Shown here: positions 2,340-52,035 of the stretch, in pieces
Numbering within the stretch: position 1 is the first letter of the stretch
Layout: every line of letters begins with the position of its first letter
Source of the DNA: a bacterium
GTDB taxonomy: Bacteria > Bacillota > Clostridia > Lachnospirales > Lachnospiraceae
Reading direction: 5' to 3'
DNA length: 64,000 bases
Assembly (NCBI GenBank): GCA_030535455.1
Contig: JAUNJY010000019.1
Span: 1-64,000, forward strand
Position numbers and translations under genes: made by a program
Notes under the pieces: generated by a model
Seen by the model: only the letters and a program-made list of their open reading frames with translations
Told to the model about the DNA's origin: nothing
The model's database searches: none

Positions 2340-2450
2340 GGTATGACTTAAGTATTCCCTTTTCGGTGAGTATGCATCTTGGCTTTCTGTTTTTTTTAGA
2401 AAACCTTTTTAATACATAGGAGGCTTCTCGAAAAGAAGTTTCCTATGCAC
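2340..2450 (+). repeat. Repeats A1 (degenerate) and B1
   Basis: Positions 2352-2410 match the 3' half of repeat A: CCCTTTTCGGTGAGTATGCATC, then a GGCTTTCT/AGAAAACC hairpin and five Ts. The 5' half is eroded. Positions 2411-2450 are a B hairpin with the core ATACATAGGAGGC facing TTTCCTATGCA. The order A, B, then the minus-strand terminator (2457-2479) is the same as at 43, 45 and 52 kb. Confidence 0.65.
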
Positions 2451-2479
2451 AAAAAAACGCCTCCCAAAATGGAAGACGC
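2451..2479 (-). terminator. Intrinsic terminator of tRNA-Gln
   Basis: Read on the minus strand, CGTCTTCC pairs with GGGAGGCG across the loop ATTTT and is followed by seven Ts (2451-2457). It lies 20 nt beyond the mature tRNA 3' end. Confidence 0.8.
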
Positions 2480-2498
2480 ATTCTTATCTTATGTAAAC

Positions 2499-2569
2499 AG
2501 GGCTAGCTGGATTCGAACCAGCGACTGCAGCAGTCAAAGTGCTGTGCCTTACCGCTTGGCGATAGCCCT
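2499..2569 (-). tRNA. tRNA-Gln (anticodon TTG)
   Basis: The 71-nt cloverleaf folds fully on the minus strand. The acceptor stem is AGGGCTA/TAGCCCT, the D arm is GCC/GGC, the anticodon stem is CAGCA/TGCTG with loop CTTTGAC (anticodon TTG), and the T arm is GCTGG-TTCGAAT-CCAGC. CCA is not encoded. It has its own promoter (2598-2626) and terminator (2451-2479), so it is probably a single-gene unit between tyrS and the HD gene. Confidence 0.97.
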
Positions 2570-2597
2570 ATCTTTGTTGTATCGCGACAACAAAGAT
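2570..2597 (-). other. 11-bp perfect dyad abutting the tRNA-Gln 5' end
   Basis: ATCTTTGTTGT (2570-2580) and its exact complement (2587-2597) flank a 6-nt centre. The dyad starts at the base next to the mature tRNA 5' end and ends next to the -10 box. The start site predicted from the promoter (about 2590) falls inside it. It could be a leader hairpin, an operator-like DNA dyad, or a tyrS terminator without a T-run. Confidence 0.6.
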
Positions 2598-2626
2598 ATT
2601 TTATTACATATTACGACATATGTCAA
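2598..2626 (-). promoter_or_regulatory. Sigma-A promoter of tRNA-Gln
   Basis: On the minus strand the -35 box is TTGACA (2621-2626) and the -10 box is TAAAAT (2598-2603), separated by exactly 17 bp. The predicted start near 2590 leaves a leader of about 20 nt before the tRNA. Confidence 0.75.
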
Positions 2627-2685
2627 CAATATTTTCGTACTTTTATTTTGTAATTTATTCCATTTTATCTTTTATTACTATACAC

Positions 2686-3918
2686 TTACTTTGCAATAAA
2701 TGCTTTATGGAATACTTTCTTTCCTTTTTTAATTCTGATACTTTCCTCTAACTGCTCTTTAGTCACCATGTAATCAATAATGCTTACGCGTTCCCCATCA
2801 ATGGAAAGACCTCCTTGGGTAATCAGCCTTCTTGCCTCACTCTTGCTGGCTACCAGGTTGCAAGCAAGCAATAAGTCCATGATTGGGATCTGTCCATCTG
2901 TTAATTGGTCCATGCTAATCTCAGTACTTGGCATATGGCTGTCATCCGTTCCTGATGCAAATAATGCTTGAGACGCCTGTCTTGCCTTATCTGCCTCTTC
3001 TTTTCCATGAACAAGAGAAGTAAGTTCATATGCAAGGATATCCTTAGCCTTATTTAATTCGCTGCCTTCCCAATTGCTCATTGCATCAATTTCCTCTAAT
3101 GGAATGAATGTAAGCATACGGATGCATCGTAATACATCATTGTCGCCAACATTACGCCAGTATTGGTAAAATTCAAAAGGTGACGTCTTGTTTGGATCTA
3201 ACCACACAGCTCCATTTGCAGTCTTGCCCATCTTCTTTCCTTCTGAGTTAAGAAGTAAGGTTATCGTCATGGCATATGCATCTTTTCCTAATTTACGACG
3301 GATCAGGTTGGTACCGCCAAGCATATTAGACCATTGATCATCTCCACCAAATTGCATATTGCAATTGTAGTTTTTGAATAAGTGATAGAAATCGTAAGAC
3401 TGCATTACCATGTAGTTAAATTCTAAGAATGTTAATCCCTTTTCCATTCTTTGTTTATAACACTCAGCACGGAGCATGTTATTTACAGAGAAGCAAGCAC
3501 CAACGTCTCTTAATAATTCCATGTAATTTAACTTTAGCAGCCAGTCTGCATTGTTTACTGCAATTGCACCACCTTCGCCAAAATCAATAAAGCGCTCCAT
3601 CTGATGTTTGAAGCATTCGCAGTTGTGGTTGATTGTCTCCGGTGTCATCATGGTACGCATATCTGTTCTTCCAGAAGGATCCCCAACATATCCGGTTCCT
3701 CCACCTAATAATACAACCGGCTTATTGCCAGCCATTTGAAGTCGCTTCATTAAGCATAAAGCCATAAAATGTCCTACATGCAAAGAATCTGCAGTTGGAT
3801 CAAATCCAATGTAAAACGTTGCCTTTCCGGTATTGATTAATTCTTTAACTTCTGCCTCATCGGTTACTTGTGCAATCAGTCCGCGGGCTACTAACTCATC
3901 ATAAATTGTCATATTCAT
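2686..3918 (-). CDS. tyrS: Tyrosyl-tRNA synthetase
   Basis: This cytosolic class I synthetase charges tRNA-Tyr. The 410-residue protein has the HIGH motif as HVGH (residues 47-50), preceded by GFDPTADSL. The KMSKS motif appears as KMGKT in GKKMGKTANGAVW. The central FGGDDQWSNM block belongs to the tyrosine-binding site. A C-terminal S4 RNA-binding domain is visible (SKSEARRLITQGGLSIDG). The gene is preceded by a T-box leader (4059-4364) with a Tyr specifier codon, so expression should rise when uncharged tRNA-Tyr accumulates. A B-type repeat lies in the leader between the T-box terminator and the start codon. Identification is firm. Confidence 0.97.
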   Translation of the reverse strand: MNMTIYDELVARGLIAQVTDEAEVKELINTGKATFYIGFDPTADSLHVGHFMALCLMKRLQMAGNKPVVLLGGGTGYVGDPSGRTDMRTMMTPETINHNCECFKHQMERFIDFGEGGAIAVNNADWLLKLNYMELLRDVGACFSVNNMLRAECYKQRMEKGLTFLEFNYMVMQSYDFYHLFKNYNCNMQFGGDDQWSNMLGGTNLIRRKLGKDAYAMTITLLLNSEGKKMGKTANGAVWLDPNKTSPFEFYQYWRNVGDNDVLRCIRMLTFIPLEEIDAMSNWEGSELNKAKDILAYELTSLVHGKEEADKARQASQALFASGTDDSHMPSTEISMDQLTDGQIPIMDLLLACNLVASKSEARRLITQGGLSIDGERVSIIDYMVTKEQLEESIRIKKGKKVFHKAFIAK

Positions 3919-3984
3919 TCTCCTTTTCTTACTAACTTTTTCACATAAGCTGCGTGGAGTGGAACGATCATATAAGGTATTGGC

Positions 3985-4058
3985 ACATCGTCTGTTCTAT
4001 CTTCTAGGATGCTTTTTAATGTATAGGAGGCTTCTAGAAGAGAAGTTTCCTATACATT
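3985..4058 (+). repeat. Repeat B (with A remnant) inside the tyrS leader
   Basis: AATGTATAGGAGGCTTCT (4018-4035) pairs with AGAAGTTTCCTATACATT (4041-4058) to form a long hairpin. The lower-coordinate flank, with CATCGTCTGTTCT followed by a T-run, looks like an eroded A repeat. It lies on the CDS side of the T-box terminator, so it is transcribed only when tyrS read-through occurs. Confidence 0.6.
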
Positions 4059-4364
4059 AAAAAAGCCCCCTGCAATAGACTTCTTACTATTGCAGAGGGC
4101 ATATATATGCGGTACCACCTCTAAATTAAAAACTCCTCACGGAATTTTCCTTATTGAGTACGTATTCTTCTATAAGAATAGTATACTTCCAACGCTGTAT
4201 CGGGCGTCCCCGGCATACCCTACTATTTTCAGGCTGCTGCTCCAAGATGTATTCATATCAGTATGTCTATATCCTCACACCATCCGGATACTCTCTGTTA
4301 AGACATGGTCTGTACTACTAATTCTCTTCTACGCTTTCTTTCGATATGATATTAAGTTTCGTAT
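4059..4364 (-). promoter_or_regulatory. T-box leader of tyrS (Tyr specifier)
   Basis: On the minus strand the T-box core AGAGGTGGTACCGC lies at 4109-4122, where the 3' end of uncharged tRNA pairs. The transcription terminator is GCCCTCTGCAATAG paired with CTATTGCAGGGGGC (4065-4100) with six Ts (4059-4064). In stem I, the stretch GAATACATCTTGGAGC carries the codon TAC (4249-4251), the expected tyrosine specifier. A candidate -10 box TATAAT lies at 4371-4376, placing the start near 4363. Known mechanism: uncharged tRNA-Tyr stabilises the antiterminator and allows tyrS transcription. Confidence 0.92.
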
Positions 4365-4399
4365 AACAAGATTATACCCAAATAGGACAAAAAATAAAA

Positions 4400-4423
4400 G
4401 TCACAAAATTAATAATCTGTGAC
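4400..4423 (-). terminator. Terminator of the TetR-family gene
   Basis: GTCACA/TGTGAC with an AT-rich loop, followed on the minus strand by TTTTATTTTTT. It lies 16 bp past the TetR stop codon and just upstream of the tyrS promoter, insulating the two units. T-runs on both sides could make it bidirectional. Confidence 0.7.
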
Positions 4424-4438
4424 ATTTTTGTTTTTTTC

Positions 4439-4969
4439 TTACTCAACCATGCACAAGATATCATTTGGCAACGTCCGCTTTAGTAACTCTACCAGCTTTT
4501 TCTTATCCATTTTCATCCCACCTTTAAGCCATTCAATGATCATATCAGTTCCACCTCGAGATGCAATATCAATAGCAAACCGAATATGCTCTGCCTGAAT
4601 ATCTACGCCCTTTTTCTCCAAATACTTTTCATAGGTTTTTACCGTAAGTGTAATATCATAATTTCGAAGGCCATTAATATCATGGCTTTCATATGCATGG
4701 AGCAGTACCATCTTTTTTTCTTCATAAATGGTAAGATACTTTATAAGCGCTTCCTCCCAAGTTGCCCCCTCTATGATCAGTCCAAAAGTAGCCTTATAAA
4801 ACTGTTCAAAGTACCAGCTTACTAAATCATATTTGTCTGTGAAATGTCGATAAAATGTTCTTCGTGAAAGATCGGTCAGTGTTACAATCTCGCTGACTGC
4901 AATTTCATCCAGTGCCTTTTTGCATAGCAGCTGTTCCAATGCATCTGCAAATCGTTTCTTGCTGTCCAT
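4439..4969 (-). CDS. TetR/AcrR-family transcriptional regulator
   Basis: The N-terminal helix-turn-helix is clear (IAVSEIVTLTDLSRRTFYRHFTDKYDLVSWYF, with the TFYRHF-type recognition helix). The C-terminal ligand domain resembles the TetR_C_8 / DhaS-like group. I place the start at MDSKKRFADALEQLL because GGGAG lies 7 nt upstream; a longer TTG-initiated form beginning at 5011 has no clear ribosome binding site. The protein is then 176 residues. It lies downstream of the OPT transporter on the same strand but beyond a terminator-like hairpin, so a regulatory link with that transporter is possible but unproven. The ligand is unknown. Confidence 0.85.
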   Translation of the reverse strand: MDSKKRFADALEQLLCKKALDEIAVSEIVTLTDLSRRTFYRHFTDKYDLVSWYFEQFYKATFGLIIEGATWEEALIKYLTIYEEKKMVLLHAYESHDINGLRNYDITLTVKTYEKYLEKKGVDIQAEHIRFAIDIASRGGTDMIIEWLKGGMKMDKKKLVELLKRTLPNDILCMVE

Positions 4970-5125: not shown

Positions 5126-5148
5126 ATTTTGTTAGGTAAGCCTTATAA

Positions 5149-7080: not shown

Positions 7081-7262
7081 CTATCCTTTTTGTATAATTT
7101 AGTTGTCATGTAACGCTTGATGAAAACCTACTATACATTGTCGGTCAATAAGCCCAATTTTATGTATTATGACTTTTCCATGTATTTTATATAATTTTTT
7201 CCACCTAATATGTGTTTTTTTATACTTTTGATACAGTATACTCTCCAATTCCCTTAGTAGCA

Positions 7263-7289
7263 TTGACATAATTCACTATATTTTATAGG
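7263..7289 (+). promoter_or_regulatory. Candidate promoter of the GH5 gene
   Basis: A consensus -35 TTGACA (7263-7268) is followed after a short 15-bp spacer by TATAGG (7284-7289). The spacing is suboptimal, so this is tentative. It lies in the 275-bp divergent gap between the OPT and GH5 genes, which is otherwise AT-rich without obvious structure. Confidence 0.3.
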
Positions 7290-7355
7290 CTAATAGTTAG
7301 AAATCTATATTTTTTTCTTAATTAATTAAATCACTGAACTAAAGGGAGGATTATT

Positions 7356-9212
7356 ATGAAAAAATCTAAGTTAGTAACTTTGATCTGCGCGATTGTACTT
7401 GTGATTGCTGTTGGTGCTTTGGCAGTAACTAAAATCGCCAGTGTGGGACCTTTCAAAGAGAAAACAAAAGAGGCATCCGAAGATACCATTGTTAAAGAAA
7501 ATACTCCACGTACTTCTGCAAATGGCATCGCAACAAATGATGACGGAAAGATGAGGGACGACCTAACTTCACTTGAAGTCGTAGACCTTATGGGAAATGG
7601 CATCAATCTCGGTAATACCATGGAAGCTTATGGACATGCAGAAAAAGGTATTACTGCCGATGTCTCCACTTATGAGACCTTATGGGGACAACCTGTAACA
7701 ACCCAGGCAATGATCGATGCAATGAAGAAAGCAGGATTTGATTCCTTACGTATTCCTGTTGCTTGGACAAATATGATGGATTTTGAAAATGGGGACTATA
7801 CCATCAATACAAAATATTTAGACCGTGTAGAAGAAATCATTAACTATGCCCTAAACAATAAGATGTATGTAGTTGTCAATGACCACTGGGATGGTGGCTG
7901 GTATGGCATGTTTGGTTCCTCTGATAGCAAAGTCCGTGACCAGGCAATGGAACTTTACAAATCCATGTGGACACAGATTGCAACCCGTTACAAAGACTAT
8001 TCCGACTACCTAATCTTTGAGGCTGCCAATGAAGAGCTTGGTACTTCTCTTAACAGCGACACTCTTTGCAAGACTTCCGGTTCATTATCTGAAGCTGAAT
8101 GTTATGAGGTTACCAATAAAATCAATCAGACCTTTGTAGATGTAGTAAGAGGCACCGGCGGCAATAATGAAAAACGTTTTCTTTTAATTGCCGGATTTAA
8201 TACCGACATTACAAACACCTGTGATGACCGTTTTAAAATGCCAACCGATACTGCAAAAGACAAACTGCTTCTTTCTGTTCACTACTACGTTCCAGACGGC
8301 TACTGCATTAATACAAGCCTTTCAAAATGGGGAACAAAGACAGATTATAAAAATCAAAATGAAGCACTTGCAAAAATGACTAAATTTACAGAACAGGGCT
8401 ATGGCGTTGTCATTGGAGAATACTCCGTAGCATTAAAATCTGATACTGAAGTAAAAGAGAATACTGCTGACTGGATTGGAAACTTCTTAAACAATTGTGA
8501 TCAATACGGTTACTGTCCAATGCTTTGGGACTGCAGCAGCCTATTTAAGAGAACCGAGCTTAGCTTCTTTGACAAAGATATCGCAGCATTATACACTGCT
8601 CATAGCCTAGAAACTCAGGCAAGTAAATCCAAGGAACAAATTGTTTCTGATGCAAAAGCAGAAATTGAAAAGGTAGCTGCAGCTGCTCCTGATGCTGAAG
8701 GCTCAGATATCGGTGATGATACAGCACTTGCATGGCTTATGTTTAACAGCAGCGACTGGGGCGTTTCCTACAGCGTAGGTGATAAATATGATCCTTCTAC
8801 CAAGACAGAAGGCATTAAGGCTACTGATGTAAAAATCAACGGAGCCGGTACCTATACTGTAAGCCTTGACTTTACTGAAACTGCTGCTAAATCAGCAAAC
8901 AGCATTATTTTCTCAGCTGTCGGCATCACCAACGGCGAGAAATTATATCCTGGCTACATACTTACCATTAAGGAAGTAACGATCAATGGTAAAAAGCAAA
9001 CGCTTACTGGCGCTTCTTATACAACAACTGACGACGATGTTTGTACACGTGCCAACATTTACAACAACTGGGTTACCTTAATTCCAAAGAATGCCCGTAC
9101 CATTGATGGCGATGTATCAAAGATTACTCCTAACCTTGTAGATCCTAAAAAGATTGGAGAAATCAAGACAATATCAGTAACCTTTGATTATAGCAAGCCA
9201 AAATCAAAATAG
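7356..9212 (+). CDS. GH5-family endo-glucanase, membrane-anchored or secreted
   Basis: An N-terminal hydrophobic segment (residues 6-28) is an uncleaved anchor or signal peptide; there is no lipobox Cys. The GH5 barrel follows (about 70-420). MGNGINLGNTMEA and GFDSLRIPVAW are typical early strands, VVNDHWDGGW follows, the acid/base Glu is in FEAANEELG (about residue 225), and the nucleophile Glu is in VIGEYSV (about 355). The C-terminal 160 residues are beta-rich with WLMFNSSDWGVSYSVGD and could be a carbohydrate-binding module. The expected reaction is hydrolysis of internal beta-1,4 bonds in cellulose or a related glucan outside the cell. An AAGGGAGG site supports the start. This is one of few plus-strand genes. 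The exact polysaccharide is unproven. Confidence 0.9.
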   Translation: MKKSKLVTLICAIVLVIAVGALAVTKIASVGPFKEKTKEASEDTIVKENTPRTSANGIATNDDGKMRDDLTSLEVVDLMGNGINLGNTMEAYGHAEKGITADVSTYETLWGQPVTTQAMIDAMKKAGFDSLRIPVAWTNMMDFENGDYTINTKYLDRVEEIINYALNNKMYVVVNDHWDGGWYGMFGSSDSKVRDQAMELYKSMWTQIATRYKDYSDYLIFEAANEELGTSLNSDTLCKTSGSLSEAECYEVTNKINQTFVDVVRGTGGNNEKRFLLIAGFNTDITNTCDDRFKMPTDTAKDKLLLSVHYYVPDGYCINTSLSKWGTKTDYKNQNEALAKMTKFTEQGYGVVIGEYSVALKSDTEVKENTADWIGNFLNNCDQYGYCPMLWDCSSLFKRTELSFFDKDIAALYTAHSLETQASKSKEQIVSDAKAEIEKVAAAAPDAEGSDIGDDTALAWLMFNSSDWGVSYSVGDKYDPSTKTEGIKATDVKINGAGTYTVSLDFTETAAKSANSIIFSAVGITNGEKLYPGYILTIKEVTINGKKQTLTGASYTTTDDDVCTRANIYNNWVTLIPKNARTIDGDVSKITPNLVDPKKIGEIKTISVTFDYSKPKSK

Positions 9213-9386
9213 AGTATAAGAACTAGGAGGCTGCTCGAAGAGGAGTTTCCTTATAAGATCAAATAGTCAACTTCCTCGGTCTTAAGGGAGTTGACTATTT
9301 GCCTGCGCCGAACCTGGTCGCCATAGGCGACATCTTCCTTTCAGGTGAGTGCGCATCCAACGCCCTGTCTTTCAGGGCGTTTTTTT
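9213..9386 (+). repeat. Repeats B2 and A2 between convergent genes
   Basis: B-like sequence at 9218-9257 (AGGAGGCTGCTC facing GTTTCCTTAT) is followed by a 12-bp perfect stem CAAATAGTCAAC/GTTGACTATTTG (9260-9301). Then comes a complete A element: outer GCGC/GCGC (9305-9308, 9351-9354), middle ACCTG/CAGGT, inner TCGCC/GGCGA. It ends in CGCCCTG-TCTTT-CAGGGCG (9361-9379) with seven Ts. The final hairpin can terminate plus-strand transcripts, including the GH5 message. The T-run overlaps the stop codon of the convergent hydrolase gene. This is the only locus where B precedes A. Confidence 0.75.
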
Positions 9387-10212
9387 AGTCACAGATTTTG
9401 CTTTCTATAAACGAGGTCAGCACATCGTTAAACTTATCCTTTTCCTCATAAAACAGTCCATGGCCGCTTTTTTCAAATGGAATTAGGATAGAATTGCGAA
9501 TTCCTTGCTGCTGCGCCTTTGCCAATGGAAAATAACAAACCTCATCATGGACTCCATGTAAGATCAAAGTTGGTGCACTTATCCGCCTAAGATCATCAAA
9601 CAAAGCTTCCTCTCCAAGCCAGGTTGATGCAATCTCTGCTGTTGCCCATCCTGCTGCCTCTAGCCCCAAAGTAAAGAACCAATCAGAAAATGCAACGCTT
9701 ACTGGCTGGTAAAAAAACTGTTTCCCAAAACCACGTAACATTTCTGGTCGGTCCTCATAAGTCTGTTTTATTATAGACAAGATATTTTCCTTCTTCTGTC
9801 CATATGGAAAATATGGCCGTCTGATCAGGCTTGGCGCAGCGGCTGCACAAAGTACCAGCTTTGATACCTGATACTGTTTATGCCTTGCCATATAACGGAT
9901 TGCAATTGCTCCTCCTGTTGAATGTCCCAACAATATAATATTTCTTAACTGTAGTGTCTCAATTACACAAAGGACGTCATCAGCCAGACGGTCATAGTCA
10001 TATCCAGTTGCTGGTTTGTCGGACTGTCCAAACCCTCTTTGATCAATTCCAACACAACGGTATCCCATTCGAGGAAGGTCATTAAACTGGTATTCAAACA
10101 GCTTATGGCTTCCTGGCCATCCATGCAAGAATACAATAGTATCCTCACAATCAGGATTTAGATCCTCTACAAATACTTTTACATCCGGTTGAACCTTGAT
10201 ATAATATCCCAT
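9385..10212 (-). CDS. Alpha/beta-fold hydrolase
   Basis: The catalytic triad of the fold is visible: nucleophile Ser in GHSTGG, Asp in HGVHDEVCYF, and His in KSGHGLFYEE. The oxyanion segment is FLHGWPGS, and GIDQRGFGQSDKP is the hallmark of the haloperoxidase/arylesterase branch. The likely start is MGYYIKV (10212), preceded by AGGTGGTAGG; a form with three extra residues beginning at 10221 is less likely. The protein is then 275 residues, cytosolic, with no signal peptide. The physiological ester or other substrate is unknown. It follows the arabinose operon on the same strand but after a 68-bp gap, and may be co-transcribed. Confidence 0.88.
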   Translation of the reverse strand: MGYYIKVQPDVKVFVEDLNPDCEDTIVFLHGWPGSHKLFEYQFNDLPRMGYRCVGIDQRGFGQSDKPATGYDYDRLADDVLCVIETLQLRNIILLGHSTGGAIAIRYMARHKQYQVSKLVLCAAAAPSLIRRPYFPYGQKKENILSIIKQTYEDRPEMLRGFGKQFFYQPVSVAFSDWFFTLGLEAAGWATAEIASTWLGEEALFDDLRRISAPTLILHGVHDEVCYFPLAKAQQQGIRNSILIPFEKSGHGLFYEEKDKFNDVLTSFIESKICD

Positions 10213-10280
10213 TCCTACCACCTAAAAAGTCTATTAACATCACTATATTCAACTCGTATTATTTCGTTCCGGAAGCTACC

Positions 10281-20887: not shown

Positions 20888-21024
20888 TCTGGTCTCCTCC
20901 AACTTTACTCTCTTTATTTTCTGAATTTATGTATCTAATCCCATATAGAAAAATTATCGCACACTATCCATTATATGGAAAGTTTATTTTTTACGTATAA
21001 CAACGTGTATATTTCCGTCATCAA

Positions 21025-21327
21025 CAAAGTGTGTGGAACACACACTTTGTCCGCGCCGAGCCGGGTCGCGTCAGCGACAACTTCCTTTCCGGTAAGTGCG
21101 CATCGCACGCCCTGTCTTTTTAGGGCGTTTTTTTCATATCTAGGAAGCTGCTCAAAGAGTTGCTTCCTCTTCATCAAAAAAGTGTGTGGAACACACACTT
21201 TGCCCGCGCCGAGCCGGGTCGCGTCAGCGACAATTTCCTTTCCGGTAAGTGCGCATCGCACGCCCTGTCTTTTAGGGCGTTTTTTTCATATCTAGGAAGC
21301 TGCTCAAAGAGAAGCTTCCTAGATATG
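21025..21327 (+). repeat. Tandem repeats A3-B3-A4-B4 (period 153 bp)
   Basis: Unit 1 starts with an 11-bp hairpin CAAAGTGTGTG/CACACACTTTG (21025-21049). A3 follows (21053-21134) with outer GCGC/GCGC, inner TCGC-GTCA-GCGA, terminator CGCCCT/AGGGCG and seven Ts. B3 is a short hairpin GGAAGC/GCTTCC (21136-21169). Unit 2 repeats all of this 153 bp further on: A4 at 21206-21286 and B4 at 21287-21327, a 15-bp perfect stem CATATCTAGGAAGCT with its complement. The two A copies are nearly identical, indicating recent duplication. The whole 500-bp gap between the SPFH and DinG-like genes has no other content except the DinG-like terminator. Confidence 0.85.
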
Positions 21328-21331
21328 AAAA

Positions 21332-21370
21332 AAGCAACCACCTTCTAGTTTTCCTAAAAAGTGGTTGCTT
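21332..21370 (-). terminator. Terminator of the DinG-like helicase gene
   Basis: On the minus strand, AAGCAACCAC pairs with GTGGTTGCTT and is followed by a T-run ending next to the B4 hairpin. It lies 18 bp past the stop codon. Confidence 0.8.
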
Positions 21371-21388: not shown

Positions 21389-23326
21389 TTATTCACAAAC
21401 AAGATCCTTTTCCTCTATCTTCTTTGCACCTTCTGGCAATGCACCCATGACTATTTTTTCATAAGGCGTTCCCATAACTGCATCAAAGATAGCAATCTTT
21501 CCATGATCTTCTTCAGTTCGGATCAATCGACCACACCCCTGCTTCAACTTCAATCCCATTTCTGGATAATCTACCGTTTCCACCGGATTTAGACCTTGGG
21601 CTTTTGCTTCTTTTCGCTGTTCCTCAAGAAGGGGATCCATTGCTGGGAATGGAAGCTTCCAAATGACTACCAGTGTTAAGGACTCTCCAGGAACATCAAT
21701 ACCTTCCCAATAATTTGCCCCGATTAAGACAGAAGTCTCCTCCTCTTTAAACTTACGGGCAAGATAGCCACGGTCGGCCTGGTCTTCCCATAACAGTTCA
21801 AATGGGAACTCCTGTCCCTCCAGACTTTTTCGAATACTCTTTACTTCGTCCAAATTATTTACAAGAACGAGGGCACGCCCTCCATTCTCCTTTAAAAGCA
21901 AAGCAAGTCGTTCTATCTTTTCTTGCTGTTTCCAAGCACTCGTTGCCAATGTTACGACCACTTGATTCTCAATATCAAATGGGCTTCCAATGGTGGAAGT
22001 AGACGCTTTTGTAAGTCCCATGGAACGTTTAAAATAACTAAAGTCGCCTTCATTACTTAGCGTTGCTGAAGTAAATACCACTGGTAACTGTTTAGAAATT
22101 AAATGCTTATCAAGCATTGCAGTTAAATCCTTAGGTACCACCCAAAAGCTCTCGTCATTTTGGTCCACCCAAGGGATCATCTCCTTGCCCTTTCCACGAA
22201 TGAAGCGATATAGTGCACTGATTGCACGCTCAATCTGCCCCTCATATGCCTGGATCAGACTTGTCGGCAAGGACTCAAAATACAATTCCTGCTCAATCTG
22301 CATTTCTAATAACAACCCGTCAAGGGCCTTGCGGAACGTATCTGCTGCCTTAAACAAACTGTCATTTAATCGGATGGAACGTCTTTCGGAACTTTCTCCT
22401 GGAACTAACGAAGCATCTAATATTTTAAAGAAGTTTTCTGATGACACTTCTAATTTCATCGTAATATCTGCCAGCGACTCACGTGCTCCTTGGATCTCCT
22501 CTAAGGAAGAAATCATGGACTCGATATCATCTCTGCTGATTTGTCGTCCAGCCTGCATAGCAGCAGGTAACAAGATCTTGTGACCCTCATCAAAGATTAC
22601 GCCAGAATAGCTTGGCAGGATTGGTAGCTTTCCATCTGCAATTCGCTCTTCTCTTGTCCATAAATCCTTGAAAAATGTCTCATGGTCTACAATGATTAAA
22701 TCCGCTGTAGTCCTATAGTTCTCTCTTGCCTTAATTAACTTGCAATATCCACGGTTTAGACAAACTTCGCATCCCATGGACTCATCCCAGCTAATACGTT
22801 TCCAGATACGATCGGACACAGTTGGAATTTCTGCACGTTCACCTAATGTTGTGGTTGATAACCACTCCGTCACTTCGTCAGGCAGTCCATTTAACTCTCC
22901 ACTCAGTTCTTCGACTTTGACATCACAGATATACTGACTCGGATCCTTTGCCATACGGGCATCTACTTCCAGACCAAGAAGCTTAGAAAGGGTATGGATA
23001 TCTCCATCCTTGTTTGCTAACTGTTCCTGAAGTGCTGATGTGGCACAGGCAATTACCATTGGTTTCCCTGTAAATCTTGCATATGGAATTGCTGAGAGAA
23101 GGTAAGCAAATGTCTTACCAGTACCTAGACCTGCCTCTGCTAAATGAACTTCCTTCTTACAGATTGCATCGGCTACTTGAAATGCCGTAAAGATCTGTTC
23201 ATCACGAACCTCATATCCGTATTCAGGAAGGATGTCGTATAAAACGTCACCTACCCATTCGACTAACTTTGTATGAAAGTCTTGTCTATTTGTATAATCA
23301 AAGGGCTCTTTGATTCTTGCACACAT
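21389..23326 (-). CDS. DinG/XPD-family ATP-dependent DNA helicase
   Basis: This 645-residue superfamily 2 helicase has Walker A AEAGLGTGKTFAYL (about residues 65-75), a DEGH box in GVIFDEGHKIL, and the late motif QGCGRLIRTEEDHGKIAIFD. Between motifs Ia and II there are cysteines in QYICDVK and CEVCLNRGYCK, fitting the four-Cys iron-sulfur cluster of the XPD/DinG family. Such enzymes unwind DNA 5' to 3' and act in repair and R-loop removal. The start MCARIKEPF is supported by TATAGGAGAG. The gene has its own terminator and lies 34 bp downstream of the PC4-like gene. Paralogue choice (DinG versus YoaA-like) is uncertain. Confidence 0.9.
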   Translation of the reverse strand: MCARIKEPFDYTNRQDFHTKLVEWVGDVLYDILPEYGYEVRDEQIFTAFQVADAICKKEVHLAEAGLGTGKTFAYLLSAIPYARFTGKPMVIACATSALQEQLANKDGDIHTLSKLLGLEVDARMAKDPSQYICDVKVEELSGELNGLPDEVTEWLSTTTLGERAEIPTVSDRIWKRISWDESMGCEVCLNRGYCKLIKARENYRTTADLIIVDHETFFKDLWTREERIADGKLPILPSYSGVIFDEGHKILLPAAMQAGRQISRDDIESMISSLEEIQGARESLADITMKLEVSSENFFKILDASLVPGESSERRSIRLNDSLFKAADTFRKALDGLLLEMQIEQELYFESLPTSLIQAYEGQIERAISALYRFIRGKGKEMIPWVDQNDESFWVVPKDLTAMLDKHLISKQLPVVFTSATLSNEGDFSYFKRSMGLTKASTSTIGSPFDIENQVVVTLATSAWKQQEKIERLALLLKENGGRALVLVNNLDEVKSIRKSLEGQEFPFELLWEDQADRGYLARKFKEEETSVLIGANYWEGIDVPGESLTLVVIWKLPFPAMDPLLEEQRKEAKAQGLNPVETVDYPEMGLKLKQGCGRLIRTEEDHGKIAIFDAVMGTPYEKIVMGALPEGAKKIEEKDLVCE

Positions 23327-32632: not shown

Positions 32633-32680
32633 ATACACAATCCTCCAATTTATGGAATAATAATACATTTAGTATAACAC

Positions 32681-43209: not shown

Positions 43210-43252
43210 TGTTTATGATCCACCCCTTATTTTTTTGTACTACTTCTATCTT

Positions 43253-43387
43253 ACCACACTTTGGCCGCACTGAGCCAGGTCGCGTTAGCGACATACTCCT
43301 TTCCGGTAAGTGTGCATCTTGGCTTTCTGTTCTTTAGAAAGCCTTTTAAGTGATAGGAGGCTGCTCTAAGATAAGCTTCCTATCACT
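43253..43387 (+). repeat. Repeats A5 and B5
   Basis: A5 (43267-43345): the outer stem is GCAC/GTGC here (43267-43270, 43312-43315), against GCGC/GCGC in other copies, a compensating change. The inner hairpin is TCGC-GTTA-GCGA. The terminator hairpin is GGCTTTCT/AGAAAGCC with four Ts. B5 (43349-43387) is AGTGATAGGAGGC facing GCTTCCTATCACT, directly next to the T-run of the neighbouring terminator. It occupies the 240-bp gap upstream of the GNAT gene. Confidence 0.8.
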
Positions 43388-43391
43388 AAAA

Positions 43392-43421
43392 AAAGTGCTA
43401 CCTCCCCCCAGATAGCACTTT
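43392..43421 (-). terminator. Terminator of the sigma/anti-sigma operon
   Basis: AAAGTGCTA/TAGCACTTT with a 12-nt loop, followed on the minus strand by seven Ts. It lies 29 bp past the stop codon. Confidence 0.85.
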
Positions 43422-43449: not shown

Positions 43450-44406
43450 TTATTTTAACAAACTGTATTGGAAAGAATCTGCTAGTTTTTCTAACACTTC
43501 TTCGGAGCTTTTTGTTTCGTTATCTATAAATCCTTCGTCTGTTCCTGCCAATACATTTATAGAAACAAATGATTGGTCTCTTTCTGTAATAATTAATGAT
43601 TTCATACTGCCAAGAGCAAGAAGTACCTCAGTACCATCTTTTGTCTTATAAGACCATTGCTTGTACTCTTTGGCATCGCCAATGGTCAAAGTCACATCAT
43701 TAAATGTACCTTTTTTACAATTGGAAAACTGATAGTCTAAGCTTTCATCATCTCCAAGGTTATACACTCCATCATAATGGAAGCCTCCGTCTTCGTACAT
43801 ATATCCGCCCTCGACAGAATTCATTTCTCCTACAAAATCAATGCCTAATAATTTGACCAAATCCTTATTATCAGCAAAATCTGTTATAGACTTATGTAGC
43901 TTTAGGTCATATTTTTTAATAATCGTTTCTAACTTATCTGCCATTTCCTGAGAATATATGCTGTACATACCATATTTCTTATCAAACTTAGTTGGGGCAT
44001 CTCCTACTTGATCAAGAATTTTTCCATCTTGGTCATAATTATTTATAAATGTCTGCCATTCTGTAAGAGCCTTTGCTTCTGGACTATCCTCCCATCCTTG
44101 CAAAGAAATCCTGTCCTGCTGTTTTTTTTCAGTACTCTCTGGCTTTTTTGCAGTATCTGTATCAGGTGATGTGGTAGCATTTATTTCCGTCTTAATTACT
44201 AACTTATTTAAGCCAAACATATTGGTTGCATATGCTGTTGCACTGACTCCTAATACAATTGTAAGTGATGCTGCCAGTACTGCTACTTTTTTTACTGCAC
44301 GCTTATTTGATTTATACTTTTTACTCCTCATTTCAAACTCCTCCTCATTTACTTCTGCTGAGGAATGAATTTGTGAAAATATCTCAGTATATAAGTCCTG
44401 TCTCAT
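43450..44406 (-). CDS. Putative anti-sigma factor, single-pass membrane protein
   Basis: A 318-residue protein: a short cytoplasmic N-terminal domain (about 1-38), one membrane helix (about 40-62, VAVLAASLTIVLGVSATAYA), a Ser/Thr/Lys-rich linker, and an extracytoplasmic domain with repeated Gly/Tyr stretches (GGYMYEDGGFHYDGVYNLGDD). It overlaps the 3' end of the ECF sigma gene by 23 nt, the usual arrangement for a cognate anti-sigma factor, and starts ATG after GGGAGAAC. The signal sensed is unknown. The role is inferred from position and topology. Confidence 0.7.
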   Translation of the reverse strand: MRQDLYTEIFSQIHSSAEVNEEEFEMRSKKYKSNKRAVKKVAVLAASLTIVLGVSATAYATNMFGLNKLVIKTEINATTSPDTDTAKKPESTEKKQQDRISLQGWEDSPEAKALTEWQTFINNYDQDGKILDQVGDAPTKFDKKYGMYSIYSQEMADKLETIIKKYDLKLHKSITDFADNKDLVKLLGIDFVGEMNSVEGGYMYEDGGFHYDGVYNLGDDESLDYQFSNCKKGTFNDVTLTIGDAKEYKQWSYKTKDGTEVLLALGSMKSLIITERDQSFVSINVLAGTDEGFIDNETKSSEEVLEKLADSFQYSLLK

Positions 44407-45003: not shown

Positions 45004-45142
45004 TCCACCCACTTTGTCTGCGCCGAACCCGGTCGCGTAAGCGACATCTTGCCATCGGGTAAGTGTGCCATCTGCCTTTCTGTTTTTCGAACGCCTTTTT
45101 TTACTCTATAGGGAAGGACTCGGAGAGAACTTTCCTATGGAG
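45004..45142 (+). repeat. Repeats A6 and B6
   Basis: A6 (45020-45102): outer GCGC/GTGC with one G-U pair, middle ACCCG/CGGGT (45027-45031, 45056-45060), inner TCGC-GTAA-GCGA. The middle stem differs from ACCTG/CAGGT and ACGTG/CACGT in other copies while staying paired. The terminator hairpin is degenerate but the T-run is kept. B6 (45103-45142) is ACTCTATAGGGAAG facing CTTTCCTATGGAGT. The 376-bp gap upstream of the sigma gene contains A6/B6, the VOC terminator and repeat C1. Confidence 0.78.
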
Positions 45143-45149
45143 TAAAAAA

Positions 45150-45171
45150 GGCCCCATCTTATGATGGTGCC
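45150..45171 (-). terminator. Terminator of the VOC-family gene
   Basis: GGCCCCATC/GATGGTGCC hairpin followed on the minus strand by six Ts. It lies 92 bp past the stop codon, with repeat C1 between them. Confidence 0.75.
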
Positions 45172-46904: not shown

Positions 46905-47873
46905 CTATTTATATAAATGGCATTTTACAATATGGTTGTTGCCCATATCGACTTCTGGTGGAACTTCTTTCGTACAGACTTCCATACATTCCTTACATCT
47001 TGTATGGAACTTACATCCTTTTGGAGGATTTGCCGGTGAAGGAATGCTTCCTTCCAAGATGACACGTTCTTTCTTAATGGTTGGATCTGGCATTGGAATT
47101 GCACTGAACAATGCCTTTGTATAAGGGTGAAGAGGATTTTCAAAGATATCCTCTGTTGCTCCTGTTTCTACAAGACCACCAAGATACATAACGCCAACGG
47201 TATCCGAAATATGTTCTACTACAGATAAATCATGGGAAATGAATAAGTAAGTTAACTTAAACTCTTCCTGTAAATCTGCTAATAAGTTAATGATCTGTGC
47301 CTGAATGGAAACGTCCAATGCAGATACCGCTTCATCACAAACAATAAATTCTGGATTTAATGCAATTGCTCTGGCAATACAGATTCTTTGTCTTTGTCCA
47401 CCAGAGAATTCATGTGGGTATCGGTTCTTATGGTATGGCTGAAGGCCACAGGATTCCATAATTCTATCTACATATGCATCTAACTCATTTTTAGGAACTA
47501 GCTTATGTTCTCTTACTGCTTCTCCGATAATCTCGCCAACTGGAAGTCTTGGAGAAAGACTGGAGTATGGATCCTGGAAAATGATCTGCATCTTTGTACG
47601 AAGGGCGCGTAAATCCTTTTTATTATAAGCGTAGATATCTTCTCCATTAAAAAGAACTTCCCCGTCTGTCTTGTCAATCAGGCGTAAAAGGGTTCTACCT
47701 GTAGTGGATTTACCACAGCCGGATTCTCCTACCAGACCCATTGTTGTTCCTCTTTCAATGGCAAAGCTGACATCGTCTACCGCTTTTACTGCGCCGCCGC
47801 TTTTACCAAAAGTACTACTTTTAATGGGAAAGTATTTCTTAAGATGTTTTACTTCTAAAATATTATCTGCCAT
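46905..47873 (-). CDS. oppF: Oligopeptide ABC transporter ATPase OppF
   Basis: A 322-residue ATPase with Walker [22 protein letters not shown]-loop, signature HEFSGGQRQRICIARAIAL, Walker B FIVCDEAVSALDVS, and the C-terminal oligopeptide/dipeptide extension with Cys residues in KGCKFHTRCKECMEVCTKEVP. These resemble the iron-sulfur or metal-binding Cys cluster of Opp/Dpp ATPases. It powers peptide uptake with OppD, 12 nt upstream. Last gene of oppABCDF. Confidence 0.94.
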   Translation of the reverse strand: MADNILEVKHLKKYFPIKSSTFGKSGGAVKAVDDVSFAIERGTTMGLVGESGCGKSTTGRTLLRLIDKTDGEVLFNGEDIYAYNKKDLRALRTKMQIIFQDPYSSLSPRLPVGEIIGEAVREHKLVPKNELDAYVDRIMESCGLQPYHKNRYPHEFSGGQRQRICIARAIALNPEFIVCDEAVSALDVSIQAQIINLLADLQEEFKLTYLFISHDLSVVEHISDTVGVMYLGGLVETGATEDIFENPLHPYTKALFSAIPMPDPTIKKERVILEGSIPSPANPPKGCKFHTRCKECMEVCTKEVPPEVDMGNNHIVKCHLYK

Positions 47874-47885
47874 TGTTTCTTCCCC

Positions 47886-49040
47886 CTATCTTTCCTTGTC
47901 TGCATATAAGTAGCAGCTTACAGAATGTGTTTCACTAAGCTTGATTTCTTCTGGATATAATCCGTTACAACAATCAATACATTTATCACATCTATCTTTA
48001 AAATAGCAGTAGTCTGGCATATTGATTGGGTTTGGAACCTTACCAGGAATACTGTATAAACGATCTACTTTCTTACCAACAACTGGCTTACTGTTCATAA
48101 GGCCAATGGTATATGGATGACATGGATTTGCAAAAATTTCTTCTGCCGTTCCTTTTTCCACTACCTTGCCAGCATACATAACGACAATGTAATCTGCCAT
48201 TTCTGCGATAACACCAAGGTCATGGGTAATTAACATGATACTTGTGTTAAGACGGTCTTTCAGGTCACGAAGAAGATCAAGGATCTGTGCCTGAATGGTT
48301 ACGTCTAATGCAGTTGTTGGTTCATCTGCAATGATTAACTCTGGATCACAAGCAAGACCCATGGCAATCATAATTCTTTGTCGCATACCACCGGATAATT
48401 CATGAGGGTACATGTTATACACCCCTTGACTATTGGCAATACCAACAAGCTCAAGCATTTCAATGGTTCTAGCCTTGACTTCTTCCTTTGTCTTATCAGG
48501 ATAGTGAAGTGCTACAACTTCATCTACCTGGTCACCAATTCTAAATACTGGATTTAAGCTTGTCATTGGCTCTTGGAAGATCATTGAAAGCTTGTTACCA
48601 CGTAACTTTTGCATTTCTTTTAGTGGCATCTTGGTAACATCCACCACTTCTTCACCTGTATTAAATCGGATGCCGCCTTCTACTACTTGTCCTTGAGGAC
48701 GTTGTACTAGCTGCATTAAGGAGAGGCTGGTAACAGACTTACCACAGCCTGATTCACCAACGATCCCTACTGTCTTTCCTCTTGGTACGTCAAAGGAAAC
48801 ACCATTTACTGATTTTACGATACCTGTATCTGAAAAGAAGTAAGTATGTAAGTTATCGAATTCTACTACATTCTCACTATTATTCATTTCCGTAACGTAT
48901 TCCTCTTTCGGAATTACCTTACGTTCTCTCATTTTTTCAAACTTTCTAATTGTCTGTCTATTTTCTTTCGCAATTTTTCTTGCTTCTGCAGTAGAGATAT
49001 AATTCTCATCTTTGCTATCTTTTTTCTTAAATAATGACAT
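47886..49040 (-). CDS. oppD: Oligopeptide ABC transporter ATPase OppD
   Basis: Walker [21 protein letters not shown], signature [19 protein letters not shown], Walker [15 protein letters not shown], and a C-terminal Cys-containing extension ([20 protein letters not shown]). It carries a charged N-terminal extension of about 55 residues before the ATPase domain. I place the start at [12 protein letters not shown] (49040), after AGGTAGGTG; a form with three more residues begins at 49049. Together with OppF it hydrolyses ATP on the cytoplasmic side. The gene follows oppC with almost no gap. Confidence 0.93.
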
Positions 49041-49049
49041 ACTAAACAC

Positions 49050-50732
49050 CTACCTCTTCATCTTAGGATCAAATGCATCTCTAAGTCCATCACCTACAAA
49101 GTTAAATCCTAATACAGTTAATAAGATTAATATACCGGCTGGAACCCATACAAATAAATATTTTGTCATGATGTAAATATCATTTACGGCATTGATGATA
49201 TTTCCCCAGGAAGCATATGGGAACTTAACACCTAAGCCTAAGAAACTTAATGCAGCTTCTTGTAAGATAACATTACCAAGACCCATGGTTGCAATTACGA
49301 TTAACTGTGGAATAACGTTTGGTATTAAATGCTTAAAGATTCTTCTTGAAGTACGGATACCCGTAGCTTCTGTTGCGATCATGAATTCCTGTTCTCTTAA
49401 AGAAAGGATCTGACCTCTTACCATACGTGCAACTTGTGGCCAGCTAAGTACGGCTAAGATGACACATAATAAATAGATACGTACGCTTGGATCTATTTTT
49501 AAGAAGTCCATGATTGCTCCTAGGATAATGTAAAGTGGCATGGAAGGAATACAGTTAAAGATATCTACAATTCTCATACAGATACTGTCAACCCAGCCGC
49601 CAAAATATCCGGATAATCCACCGACAATGACACCAAGAATGATTTCAAAGATTACAACGATAAAACCGATCATTAAAGAAATACGTCCACCATACATAAG
49701 ACGGGTAAGCATATCCATACCATTACCGTCAGTTCCCATCCAGTGGGCTTTTGAAGGTGCCTGGTAAGTCGCATTTACTTGTACTTCTTTTTTATTTTTT
49801 ATAATATATTCACCATTTTTTTGTGTTACTTCATATGTTTCTGTGGTTCCATCTTCCTCTGTATAGTCAAACTTTTTCTGTTCGGAAGCAATTGCCTCTT
49901 CTACTGCTTTTTTAAACGGAACAGTGAGGAAGACACCATTATTGATTGCACGTACATTAAAACGGGACGCACTTGCATATTCTTTTTCATCCGCTTTAAA
50001 TACCGCTGAATTGTTTTCTTTGTTTAATTCTACTTGGTATGTTTTTTTGTCTGCTACAAAGCTAGTTTGTTCTGTTACCATGGCAAGCTCTGCCTGAGTT
50101 TTAAACTCAAAGGATAACTTAGTATCTTCTGCAAATGTATTAAATAATAACTTAGAAGCTGTAGCTAATGCATTTGTTTCAGAAACGGTACTCTTTCTGC
50201 CATCCTTACTGATATAGTATGTTTTTTCATTTACTCGGAATGTCGTATTTCCGGCTGCATCAGCTTCTGTAAATGCTGCTGTGAACTCATCGGTAATATT
50301 CGTATCCCCTTTTTGTGTCACGGATACGATACCCTTTATACTAATGACTTCTGCTACTTCTGTAAGCTCGGCTACTTCATAAAAATCTTCACCCAGCTTG
50401 ATTAAGTTGTAGGATTTTCCACCTGAGGTAAAGGAATCGTCTCCTTTGTTGATTGCTAAGATCATATCTGCCTTAACAAGTGCGGAAAGGTTAGCCCCCT
50501 CCTTTTGTGTGTAAATATAATCCTCGTTATGTTTTACTCCTGCATAATCTTTGTATGTTATCTCAGTCGTACGGAATACTTCTGTCTCACCATATGGAGA
50601 TATTACTCCTCCTAAAAAGGAAAAGATAAACATGGCAACAATGATAACTGCACCGATTACTGCCAGACGATTTCTTGTAAATCGCTTGATTACCAGCATG
50701 CTAGGAGATAATACTTTCGTTTCTTTTTCCAT
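49050..50732 (-). CDS. oppC: Oligopeptide ABC permease OppC with large extracytoplasmic insert
   Basis: A 560-residue permease, against about 300 in most OppC proteins. After the first helix (RLAVIGAVIIVAMFIFSFLGG, about 20-42) comes a soluble stretch of about 260 residues before MGTDGNGMDMLTRLMYGGRISL. The remaining helices and the EAA loop EQEFMIATEATGIRTSRRIFKHLIPNVIPQL are normal. The insert is rich in Lys, Thr and Glu and should lie outside the cell. OppA here also has an insert, so the two may interact. It lies 14 nt after oppB. Confidence 0.92.
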   Translation of the reverse strand: MEKETKVLSPSMLVIKRFTRNRLAVIGAVIIVAMFIFSFLGGVISPYGETEVFRTTEITYKDYAGVKHNEDYIYTQKEGANLSALVKADMILAINKGDDSFTSGGKSYNLIKLGEDFYEVAELTEVAEVISIKGIVSVTQKGDTNITDEFTAAFTEADAAGNTTFRVNEKTYYISKDGRKSTVSETNALATASKLLFNTFAEDTKLSFEFKTQAELAMVTEQTSFVADKKTYQVELNKENNSAVFKADEKEYASASRFNVRAINNGVFLTVPFKKAVEEAIASEQKKFDYTEEDGTTETYEVTQKNGEYIIKNKKEVQVNATYQAPSKAHWMGTDGNGMDMLTRLMYGGRISLMIGFIVVIFEIILGVIVGGLSGYFGGWVDSICMRIVDIFNCIPSMPLYIILGAIMDFLKIDPSVRIYLLCVILAVLSWPQVARMVRGQILSLREQEFMIATEATGIRTSRRIFKHLIPNVIPQLIVIATMGLGNVILQEAALSFLGLGVKFPYASWGNIINAVNDIYIMTKYLFVWVPAGILILLTVLGFNFVGDGLRDAFDPKMKR

Positions 50733-50746
50733 TTCTTCTTACCTCC

Positions 50747-51739
50747 TTAATGAACTCTTACTCTAGGGTCAACCACTGCATATAAAATATCGGCAATGAT
50801 GGTTCCTAATAATGTTAACACTGCTAAAAATACCATATAGAACATTGTAAATGGGATATCCCCTTGCACCATACTCTGGTATGCCGTATATCCAATACCA
50901 GGGATCTGGAAGATTGTTTCTGTGATCAATGCACCAGAGAATAATCCAGGAAGGGAACTTCCAAGTAATGTGATGATTGGAATCAATGTGTTACGGAATG
51001 CGTGATGTCCAACTACTCTCTTTTCAGATACCCCTTTTGCTCTTGCAGTACGGATAAAGTCAGAATTCATTACTTCTAACATATTGGTTCTTACATATCT
51101 CATCATGGTACCCATGCTGACTGCTGTTAATGTAAATACTGGAAGTACGTAATGTTTTGCAATATCAAGCATCTGACCCATTGGGGAGAGCTGCTCATGC
51201 ATTCTTCCTACAACACCAAATAAATCAAACCATCCTAACTTTACTGAGAACAGCCATTTTAAAATGGTTGCAAGGAAGAAGGTTGGTATGGAAATACCAA
51301 GTAATGCAAAGATCGTTGCCGCATAATCGGTCTTACTGTATTGTTTCTTGGCTGAAATGATTCCTAGCGGAATTGCAATTACTAATTCTAATATCAAGGA
51401 TAACAATCCAAGGATAAAGGAGTACCAGATTACTCGTCCAAACTTTGTAAGAACTGGTACGTTCCAAGCCCAAGAGTCACCGAAATCTAAACGTACTGCT
51501 TTACTAAGCCATTTACAATATCCCTGTACCACTCCTGTATCTAGCCCATAGGATTGATTGAGCTGAGCTACCCATTCCTCATAAGGCTTGGCACCCGGCT
51601 GGGTGGCTAATTGTCTTGCTTGTGTCTCTACATAACTAGTTGGCATGCATCGCATAATTCCATAAATTATAAAGGACACAAAGAAAAGAATCACTACACT
51701 TTGTAACAATCTCTTTGTGATAAACTTTCTCATCTTCAT
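50747..51739 (-). CDS. oppB: Oligopeptide ABC permease OppB
   Basis: A 330-residue permease with six helices, the N-terminal RRLLQSVVILFFVSFIIYGIMRCMP-like stretch (here KRLLQSVVILFFVSF), and the EAA loop NSDFIRTARAKGVSEKRVVGHHAFRNTLIP. It pairs with OppC to form the channel. A start at ATG 51739 or 51733 follows AGGAGAATG. It is separated from oppA by 343 bp holding the oppA terminator and repeats A7/A8. Confidence 0.94.
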   Translation of the reverse strand: MKMRKFITKRLLQSVVILFFVSFIIYGIMRCMPTSYVETQARQLATQPGAKPYEEWVAQLNQSYGLDTGVVQGYCKWLSKAVRLDFGDSWAWNVPVLTKFGRVIWYSFILGLLSLILELVIAIPLGIISAKKQYSKTDYAATIFALLGISIPTFFLATILKWLFSVKLGWFDLFGVVGRMHEQLSPMGQMLDIAKHYVLPVFTLTAVSMGTMMRYVRTNMLEVMNSDFIRTARAKGVSEKRVVGHHAFRNTLIPIITLLGSSLPGLFSGALITETIFQIPGIGYTAYQSMVQGDIPFTMFYMVFLAVLTLLGTIIADILYAVVDPRVRVH

Positions 51740-51817
51740 TCTCCTATTCCTTAAATATCGCGACCGTCAACACAGTCATGAATCAGCATGACCTAGGCTA
51801 TAAAGTACGCGTAAAAA

Positions 51818-52035
51818 AGTATTTTGCTTGCAAAACACTCCGCGCCGAACGTGGTTACGAAGTAATATACTCCTTTCACGTGAGTGCGCATCTTGGCTTT
51901 CTGTTTTTGAGAAAGCCTTAGCGCCGAACGTGATTACGAAGTAATATACTCCTTTCACGTAAGTGCGCATCTTGGCTTTCTGTTTTTAAGAAAGCTTTTT
52001 ATACTAGCTGGGGGGCTCCCCCAGCTAGTATAAAA
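51818..52035 (+). repeat. Tandem repeats A7, A8 and a B-like palindrome
   Basis: A leading hairpin AGTATTTTGC/GCAAAACACT (51818-51839) is followed by A7 (51842-51917) and A8 (51921-51996), 79 bp apart. Both have outer GCGC/GCGC, middle ACGTG/CACGT and inner TTAC-GAA-GTAA. These paired bases differ from other loci. Each ends in a GGCTTTC/GAAAGC-type hairpin; only A8 has a T-run. A B-position palindrome (51997-52035) begins TTTTATACTAGCTGGGGG and is completed by its complement. Together with the oppA terminator they fill the 343-bp gap between oppB and oppA. Confidence 0.85.

Follow-up and report, generated by a model that had tools for sequence, protein, structure and literature searches.

To our knowledge, short structured repeats are common in bacteria and the way in which most of them move is unknown. 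Among eukaryotes, short interspersed nuclear elements (SINEs) are short and non-autonomous, give a folded, RNA-like strand with a 3′ A-tract, insert at T-tracts and are frequently truncated at the 5′ end. The repeat considered here, A, occurs in eight places in a 64-kb stretch of DNA from a Lachnospiraceae genome (hereafter the window), which lies within contig C10 of an assembly (G000) of 4.35 Mb in 126 contigs, 93.6% complete. We find that A forms the conserved middle of a mobile unit of ~150 bp that seems to be non-autonomous, and we propose, with about even confidence, that copying of this unit starts at the 3′ end of a single strand, which may be RNA. A offers unusually sharp clues for a repeat of this kind: one target structure, one folded strand and one constant end. 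Three SINE features are found in A: its RNA-like strand finishes 3′ in an A-tract, it inserts at T-tracts, and many copies are truncated on the 5′ side. A differs from SINEs in being bacterial, in having no element with the same 3′ end beside the reverse transcriptase (RT) or Y1 genes examined and in showing no excess of sigma-70-like promoters.

Several described bacterial systems resemble A in part. The BOX, RUP and SPRITE repeats of Streptococcus pneumoniae are, like A, short, non-coding and interspersed, with predicted RNA folds; BOX is modular, and SPRITE is enriched near gene 3′ ends (PMC3049150). These pneumococcal repeats mirror coding bias only, with 60.8–63.3% on the leading strand (PMC3049150), whereas A is fixed relative to the terminator that it abuts and is polar at 47 of 47 places in the complete genome G003. 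The bcr1 element of the Bacillus cereus group is likewise a structured, mobile, non-coding repeat, of 147–167 bp (PMC2267715). It has been grouped with or likened to miniature inverted-repeat transposable elements, MITEs (PMC3733652, PMC2267715, PMC3446304), whereas A has no terminal inverted repeats. Repetitive extragenic palindromic (REP) sequences, which go with a Y1 transposase called RAYT, are high-copy intergenic palindromic repeats as A is (PMC3733652, PMC2817692). They bear a GTAG/CGTC tetranucleotide at the palindrome foot (PMC3733652), whereas A is a multi-hairpin unit of ~150 bp whose consensus, by eye, has no such foot, and G003 holds no Y1 match. Group IIC introns are retroelements that insert next to a DNA stem-loop, which they recognise; they have no endonuclease and at replication forks make use of the lagging strand (PMC10190682). 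A also inserts beside a DNA stem-loop. Unlike these introns, A is ~150 nt long, encodes no protein and, at the Rfam gathering threshold, gives no group II match. Furthermore, a group IIC intron is co-oriented with the terminator, whereas the RNA-like strand of A is antiparallel to it. Within the terms that we searched, the open-access literature yielded no title on the repeat A family or on a bacterial SINE.

A covarying core inside a larger mobile unit

The core of A is ~52 nt long (GCGCCGAACCTGGTCGC..GCGACAT..TCCTTTCAGGTGAGTGYGCATC) and forms three stacked stems, with a conserved tandem G·A and a bulged T between the outer and middle stems; the 3′ side carries a bulge rich in pyrimidines. 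In a plain MAFFT alignment of 26 copies (A4), which was not fitted to the structure, 96.4% of pairs are standard and 6 of 15 pairs change on both sides. Three larger alignments were fitted to the structure, a procedure that favours it. Here 97.2% of cells are paired in 81 distinct rows from the genus and 98.9% in 83 distinct rows from other loci (two genus loci being in both sets), while 98.1% of pair cells are intact in a broad alignment of 94 distinct rows; both-sided change occurs in 10, 12 and 13 of the 15 pairs, respectively. Covariation was judged by shuffles and by slid pairings, the latter reaching at most 62.9% in the 81-row and 58.7% in the 83-row set. The stem differences listed in an earlier note on this DNA are compensatory changes.

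A G–U pair on one strand is an A–C mismatch on the other. On the A strand of the core, G–U outnumbers A–C by 51 to 15 and by 47 to 5 in two counts, with P values of 1e-5 and 1e-9 that assume independent cells, which these cells are not. A palindrome downstream of the core, present in 120 of 183 units with a median arm of 21 nt, shows the same excess (98 versus 49). Because G–U outnumbers A–C, selection acts on the single strand that runs in A orientation, whether as RNA or as DNA; this strand is the folded one. Covariation and G–U excess together bear out the suggestion of selection on structure. A second hairpin follows the core and takes several unrelated sequences among G000 loci and arrays (GGCTTTC/GAAAGCC, CGCCCT/AGGGCG and a short GCGGAGCG form), as if this module had been exchanged between copies.

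The repeat as first described is real, and it proves to be the middle of a unit of ~150 bp that comprises a 5′ hairpin after an A-tract, the core, the second hairpin with a T-run, and the palindrome. The second hairpin is terminator-like in many copies, and the outer arms of the palindrome merge into the T-run on one side and into an A-tract on the other. The unit is too short to hold a gene. Without mismatches, the core motif GGTNAGTGYGCATC occurs 39 times in the whole of G000 and not once when read backwards, and the covariance-model search (model R1), in which 150 of 1027 first-look candidates were scored, finds at least 144 matches at E ≤ 0.1 and 141 at E ≤ 0.001. Covariation and further copies, on which the earlier note had let its proposal stand or fall, are thus both found. 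Repeat A was found in 19 of 98 relatives (its own genome counted) and, within the family at large, in 89 of the 299 genomes sampled. Matches in a sample of the phylum came from 2 of 299 genomes, its own and one of the same family, and among other families of the order 1 of 38 genomes (G095) matched. These wide searches used stricter filters, and their matches per genome are lower bounds. A search of public genomes for an exact pattern gave 40 stretches, mostly from metagenome-assembled genomes labelled Lachnospiraceae, Clostridiales or Eubacterium, in line with the assignment of the window to the Lachnospiraceae.

Mobility is indicated by copy number, by sharp-ended copies and by an empty site. 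In G003, 11 near-identical copies at unlinked loci, chosen by eye among 47, share 93% identity over 134 nt with a sharp edge at the A-tract, beyond which the left flanks share 30%; they represent recent insertions, whose ends are fixed. Among eight pairs of filled and unfilled loci compared, one was informative (L045/L190): the orthologous gene in the related genome G001 has a terminator, T-tract and downstream flank in uninterrupted succession, and the unit of G000, which itself ends in a hairpin and T-tract, is inserted between T-tract and flank. The earlier suggestion of a mobile REP- or MITE-like element is borne out as far as a mobile repeat family goes, but neither a true REP nor a true MITE is supported.

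A classic MITE, mobilised by a terminator-preferring DDE transposase, would share with A its short, non-coding, high-copy form, and the A-tracts on both sides could be a target duplication. A/T-tracts do flank the unit on both sides, and a homopolymer cannot reveal whether it has been duplicated. The left end (AAGAGTTTCGC.../AAAAAAGAGTTTGG...) is, however, unlike the inward-read right end (TTTTTTT-ATTACATAGG.../TTTTTTT-AATTTATAGG...) when consensus sequences are compared by eye, so that there are no terminal inverted repeats. With the one-sided truncation and the fixed orientation relative to the terminator described below, this makes the MITE account very improbable.

The earlier note had also considered stand-alone or antisense small RNAs. 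A family of host small or antisense RNAs, or of antisense terminators that stop transcription into gene 3′ ends, would be in keeping with the covarying structure, the terminator-like hairpin with its U-run and the position antisense to gene 3′ ends. We nevertheless find it improbable: sigma-70-like promoters are not in excess, near-identical copies lie beside unrelated genes, copy number ranges between genera from none found to at least 144, and 5′-short copies and tandem arrays are seen.

Target, orientation and one-sided truncation

The 3′ (palindrome) end of the unit lies on the T-tract of an intrinsic terminator, which reads as an A-tract on the A strand, so that the unit is antiparallel to the terminator. 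A facing terminator-like hairpin and T-run abuts 39 of the 47 copies in G003, as against 17 of 600 random G003 stretches drawn from the whole genome rather than from intergenic DNA alone; three of the eight misses are array members followed by another copy. Arrays of two or three units are common, and in one (L215) each unit follows its neighbour's terminator-like 5′ end. In the window, hairpins behind a tRNA-Gln gene and a T-box leader also serve as targets.

Orientation also follows replication in some genomes. The 47 G003 matches (E ≤ 0.01; 150 of 943 candidates were scored) without exception point against the replication fork, being on the plus strand from 1.16 to 3.40 Mb and on the minus strand elsewhere, with dnaA at 3.50 Mb and GC skew flipping between samples at 1.13/1.23 and 3.48/3.70 Mb. 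Within contigs of G000 that hold at least two matches, 115 of 117 matches agree in strand. Two blocks, set by GC skew with dnaA not located, fit 18 of 20 matches in G095 and, in stretches sampled there at even spacing, 23 of 25 copies that contain the core. By crude open reading frame (ORF) calls, 77.5% of transcription-unit ends in G003 and 72.1% in G095 have the leading orientation; the polarity of A exceeds this with P 6e-6 for the 47 G003 copies, 3e-5 when 41 are taken as independent (collapsing arrays leaves 42 copies) and 0.016 in G095. Unit ends were used as the baseline in place of a crude hairpin scan of G003, which gave 100 leading and 69 lagging terminator-like sites, many of them probably two-way. 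Replication polarity as the sole rule of orientation, which holds in G003, G000 and G095, fails in G006, where strands are mixed: 41 of 55 matches agree with the contig majority, and local GC skew is negative in 9 of 15 loci. The unit still faces its right gene in 12 of 14 cases with a called right gene (15 of 68 loci examined). Because strands in G006 are mixed and the right gene is faced all the same, we propose that the terminator sets orientation first and that replication adds to it in some genomes.

Copying might also need no dedicated enzyme, if template switching coupled to replication, or else gene conversion, carried pieces of the unit from one hairpin or T-tract site to another. The T/A-tracts at both ends, the strong hairpins, the arrays, the replication polarity of G003 and the want of any partner gene near copies are what this account would predict. 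We judge it quite unlikely, since full copies that end alike at 11 unlinked loci, and a conserved, covarying core, call for specific recognition.

Truncation was assessed with whole-unit profiles on evenly spaced stretches chosen regardless of A. In 1.10 Mb of G095, 34 copies comprise 16 that are full, 9 that start inside the core or stem, 9 with the palindrome only and none without the 3′ end; 0.68 Mb of unmasked G003 gave 4 full, 2 that are 5′-short and none without the 3′ end. The 5′ parts are thus absent from 18 of 34 sampled G095 copies and 2 of 6 sampled G003 copies, as in SINEs. Reversed G095 sequence gave no matches to the profile. Of 16 artificial 5′ pieces placed in random sequence at each length, 15 were detected at 50 nt and all 16 at both 75 and 95 nt. 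One short copy (L345) looks young, because by eye it has a single difference from consensus over ~66 nt after an abrupt edge.

Proposed copying from the 3′ end

A T-tract target, a constant 3′ end, 5′ truncation, a folded A strand and the lack of inverted repeats fit copying from the 3′ end, and we infer that a single strand of A polarity is so copied. RNA-templated, target-primed copying would account for all five features, and retroposition from an RNA template, as in SINEs, is our first choice, if a tentative one. Human Alu elements spread by copying from RNA, as A may. A could then possibly be the first bacterial SINE-like retroposon, a folded non-coding RNA of ~150 nt reverse transcribed in trans in many Lachnospiraceae genera; priming at the terminator T-tract would, if this tentative reading is right, leave 5′-truncated copies and self-propagating arrays.

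We envisage that a 3′-hydroxyl at the T-tract of the terminator-bearing strand would pair with the A-tract that ends the A strand, and would then be extended through both the palindrome and the core. The new strand might rejoin the target by way of the element's own 5′ A-tract, a T-tract in the new strand, and early stops would give 5′-truncated copies. The folded core would be a likely handle for a trans-acting enzyme. The unit's own terminator-like hairpin and T-tract would create new targets, and since the unit ends in this way head-to-tail arrays would also be explained.

Searches for the enzyme bear on this scheme and on its closest competitor. A total of 651 ORFs beside copies were clustered for a partner gene, and the ten families present in at least three genomes are, by eye, ordinary cellular genes, among them transporters, tRNA synthetases and regulators. 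Around the RT and Y1 genes examined, the sole element with A's 3′ end was the copy already known in G001. Because neither a shared RT or Y1 match nor a recurrent partner gene was found, the unit seems to be non-autonomous. Two RT loci were noted in passing, by eye. One (L393, G001:C121, 1655–4639) encodes a 994-residue protein that reads as an RT-nitrilase fusion, a defence-type RT, and ~0.4 kb downstream of it, where the contig ends, lies a copy of A; the other (L395, G003, 799–3017) consists of two adjacent genes, a retron-type RT and a partner.

Transposition of single-stranded DNA in trans, by an HUH/Y1-type or other single-strand enzyme, would make A a palindrome-ended relative of REP or IS200/IS605 elements. 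IS200/IS605-type elements have subterminal hairpins and no inverted repeats and insert 3′ of a short fixed target; they are moved by a Y1 transposase, and their folded strand lies on the lagging-strand template. In A the hairpins near both ends, the lack of terminal inverted repeats, the T-tract at the left flank and right end (by eye, a short T-rich target 3′ of which the unit inserts) and the strand bias in G003 and G095 all recall this group. The enzyme itself does not appear: Y1_Tnp (PF01797) has no match in the complete G003, with its 47 copies, or in G005, and in G001 its sole match is a 31-position fragment with a stop. The REP-associated transposase for which the earlier note had advised a search is not borne out either, as the three PF01797 matches in G000 have no A copy within 1.5 kb. 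The polarity of G003, moreover, predicts that the enzyme's strand would be the terminator-bearing one, whereas the folded strand is its complement, and two-ended excision does not predict one-sided truncation. On balance we regard this explanation as unlikely.

Several observations weigh against 3′-anchored copying from RNA, in addition to the mixed strands of G006. RVT_1 (PF00078) has no match in two carriers, G000 (144 copies; 93.6% complete) and G011, and the RTs of G001, G003, G005, G006 and G095 are of differing types by eye (group II, retron-like and RT-nitrilase being by-eye labels). A scan limited to sigma-70-like sites (score ≥ 9) found them upstream of 16% of 183 units, as against 19% of block shuffles. 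A transcript would be expected to stop at A's own hairpin and U-run, short of the palindrome, so that an RNA that reaches the A-tract needs read-through; the RNA model explains neither this passage nor the want of an RT match in G000. Of the short G095 copies, as judged by eye, L232 owes its length to an internal deletion, and two others, L245 and L247, are degenerate. The 3′ end of the profile finds no match in the window copies at 9305, 51842 and 51921, and a reversed copy elsewhere in the genome (G000:C62:52709) is without second hairpin and palindrome. Palindrome-only copies could also be a separate repeat, in which case the asymmetry falls to 9 to 0 (P 0.004). Next to one such copy in G095 (L247, near 14195) lies a motif that by eye is T-box-like, GGTGGTACCGCG.

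If A is copied from RNA, then the SINE-like exploitation of reverse transcription is not confined to eukaryotes; this would be a novelty among bacteria and would imply an as yet unknown enzyme. Should A be copied otherwise, it is still widespread, being found in 89 of 299 sampled family genomes; it reshapes transcription-unit ends and can land behind attenuator terminators, such as that of the T-box in the window.

Copies and other features in the window

With up to two mismatches allowed, the core motif GGTNAGTGYGCATC matches the window 8 times where 1.41 matches are expected, and a count of 8 was reached by 0 of 100 shuffles. One of them, at 30443 on the minus strand, is no copy, and the copy at 45020 is missed by the motif. 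All eight copies reported earlier are present on the plus strand; the one at 2352, previously called degenerate, is better described as 5′-shortened, and a palindrome-only copy is added. Cores were located by R1, as for the left unit of the tandem pair, where the nhmmer unit profile and the fold were also used.

2358..2460, plus strand: 5′-truncated copy (profile positions 64–164: core end, second hairpin, palindrome); adjoins the terminator-like hairpin of tRNA-Gln (2497–2570, minus strand)
3993..4067, plus strand: palindrome-only copy, additional to the eight (profile positions 89–164); immediately behind the T-run of the hairpin at the end of the T-box leader (Rfam match 4092–4340, minus strand)
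9260..9393, plus strand: rearranged copy with 5′ hairpin, core 9305–9357, and hairpin with T-run abutting the end of gene 9385–10221 (minus strand); a palindrome-like stretch (9218–9262) is on its left, not its right
21023..21185, plus strand: full unit, left of tandem pair; 5′ hairpin CAAAGTGTGTG/CACACACTTTG, core 21053–21104, hairpin CGCCCT/AGGGCG with T-run, palindrome with right outer arm decayed
21183..21336, plus strand: full unit, right of tandem pair; core 21206–21257, palindrome arms 21281–21305/21309–21333; adjoins the terminator-like hairpin of gene 21389–23326 (minus strand)
43250..43398, plus strand: full unit; core 43267–43318, palindrome, then the terminator-like hairpin of gene 43450–44406 (minus strand)
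45005..45153, plus strand: full unit; core 45020–45072, second hairpin degenerate, palindrome intact
51819..51918, plus strand: first of close pair; 5′ hairpin, core 51842–51892, second hairpin, without its own palindrome
51921..52040, plus strand: second of close pair; core 51921–51971, second hairpin, palindrome of differing sequence (ACTAGCTGGGGGG/CCCCAGCTAGT), without its own 5′ hairpin; then the terminator-like hairpin of gene 52083–54413 (minus strand)

The copies had been described as opposite to their flanking genes. This is so for the right-hand gene or tRNA of every copy in the window, whereas the left-hand gene at 9305 is on the plus strand. Comparison of the window with G001 gave no empty site: G001 is without 7205–9386, which holds this plus-strand gene and the 9305 copy, and a G001 contig begins exactly at the site of the 21206 copy. 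Rfam at gathering thresholds matches only the T-box and tRNA in the whole window, so that A belongs to no known Rfam family; low-threshold matches around 21206 were rejected as chance matches to long hairpins, such as microRNA models.

In the region 3918–4345, the T-box leader (RF00230, minus strand) has the palindrome-only A copy between its terminator-like hairpin and the gene that it presumably controls. A second repeat, by eye unlike A, occurs at 1–120 and 57776–57895 (120 nt, 86% identity), and with it a further repeated piece, GGCCAGTCAAAATGACCGGCC, at 57623–57657 and 57881–57915. A 132-nt stretch is found twice, at 47289–47420 and 48279–48410, in two neighbouring genes; its copies are 990 nt apart and 72% identical. 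The longest ORF listed for the window, of 1946 residues, lies at 26828–32668 on the minus strand.

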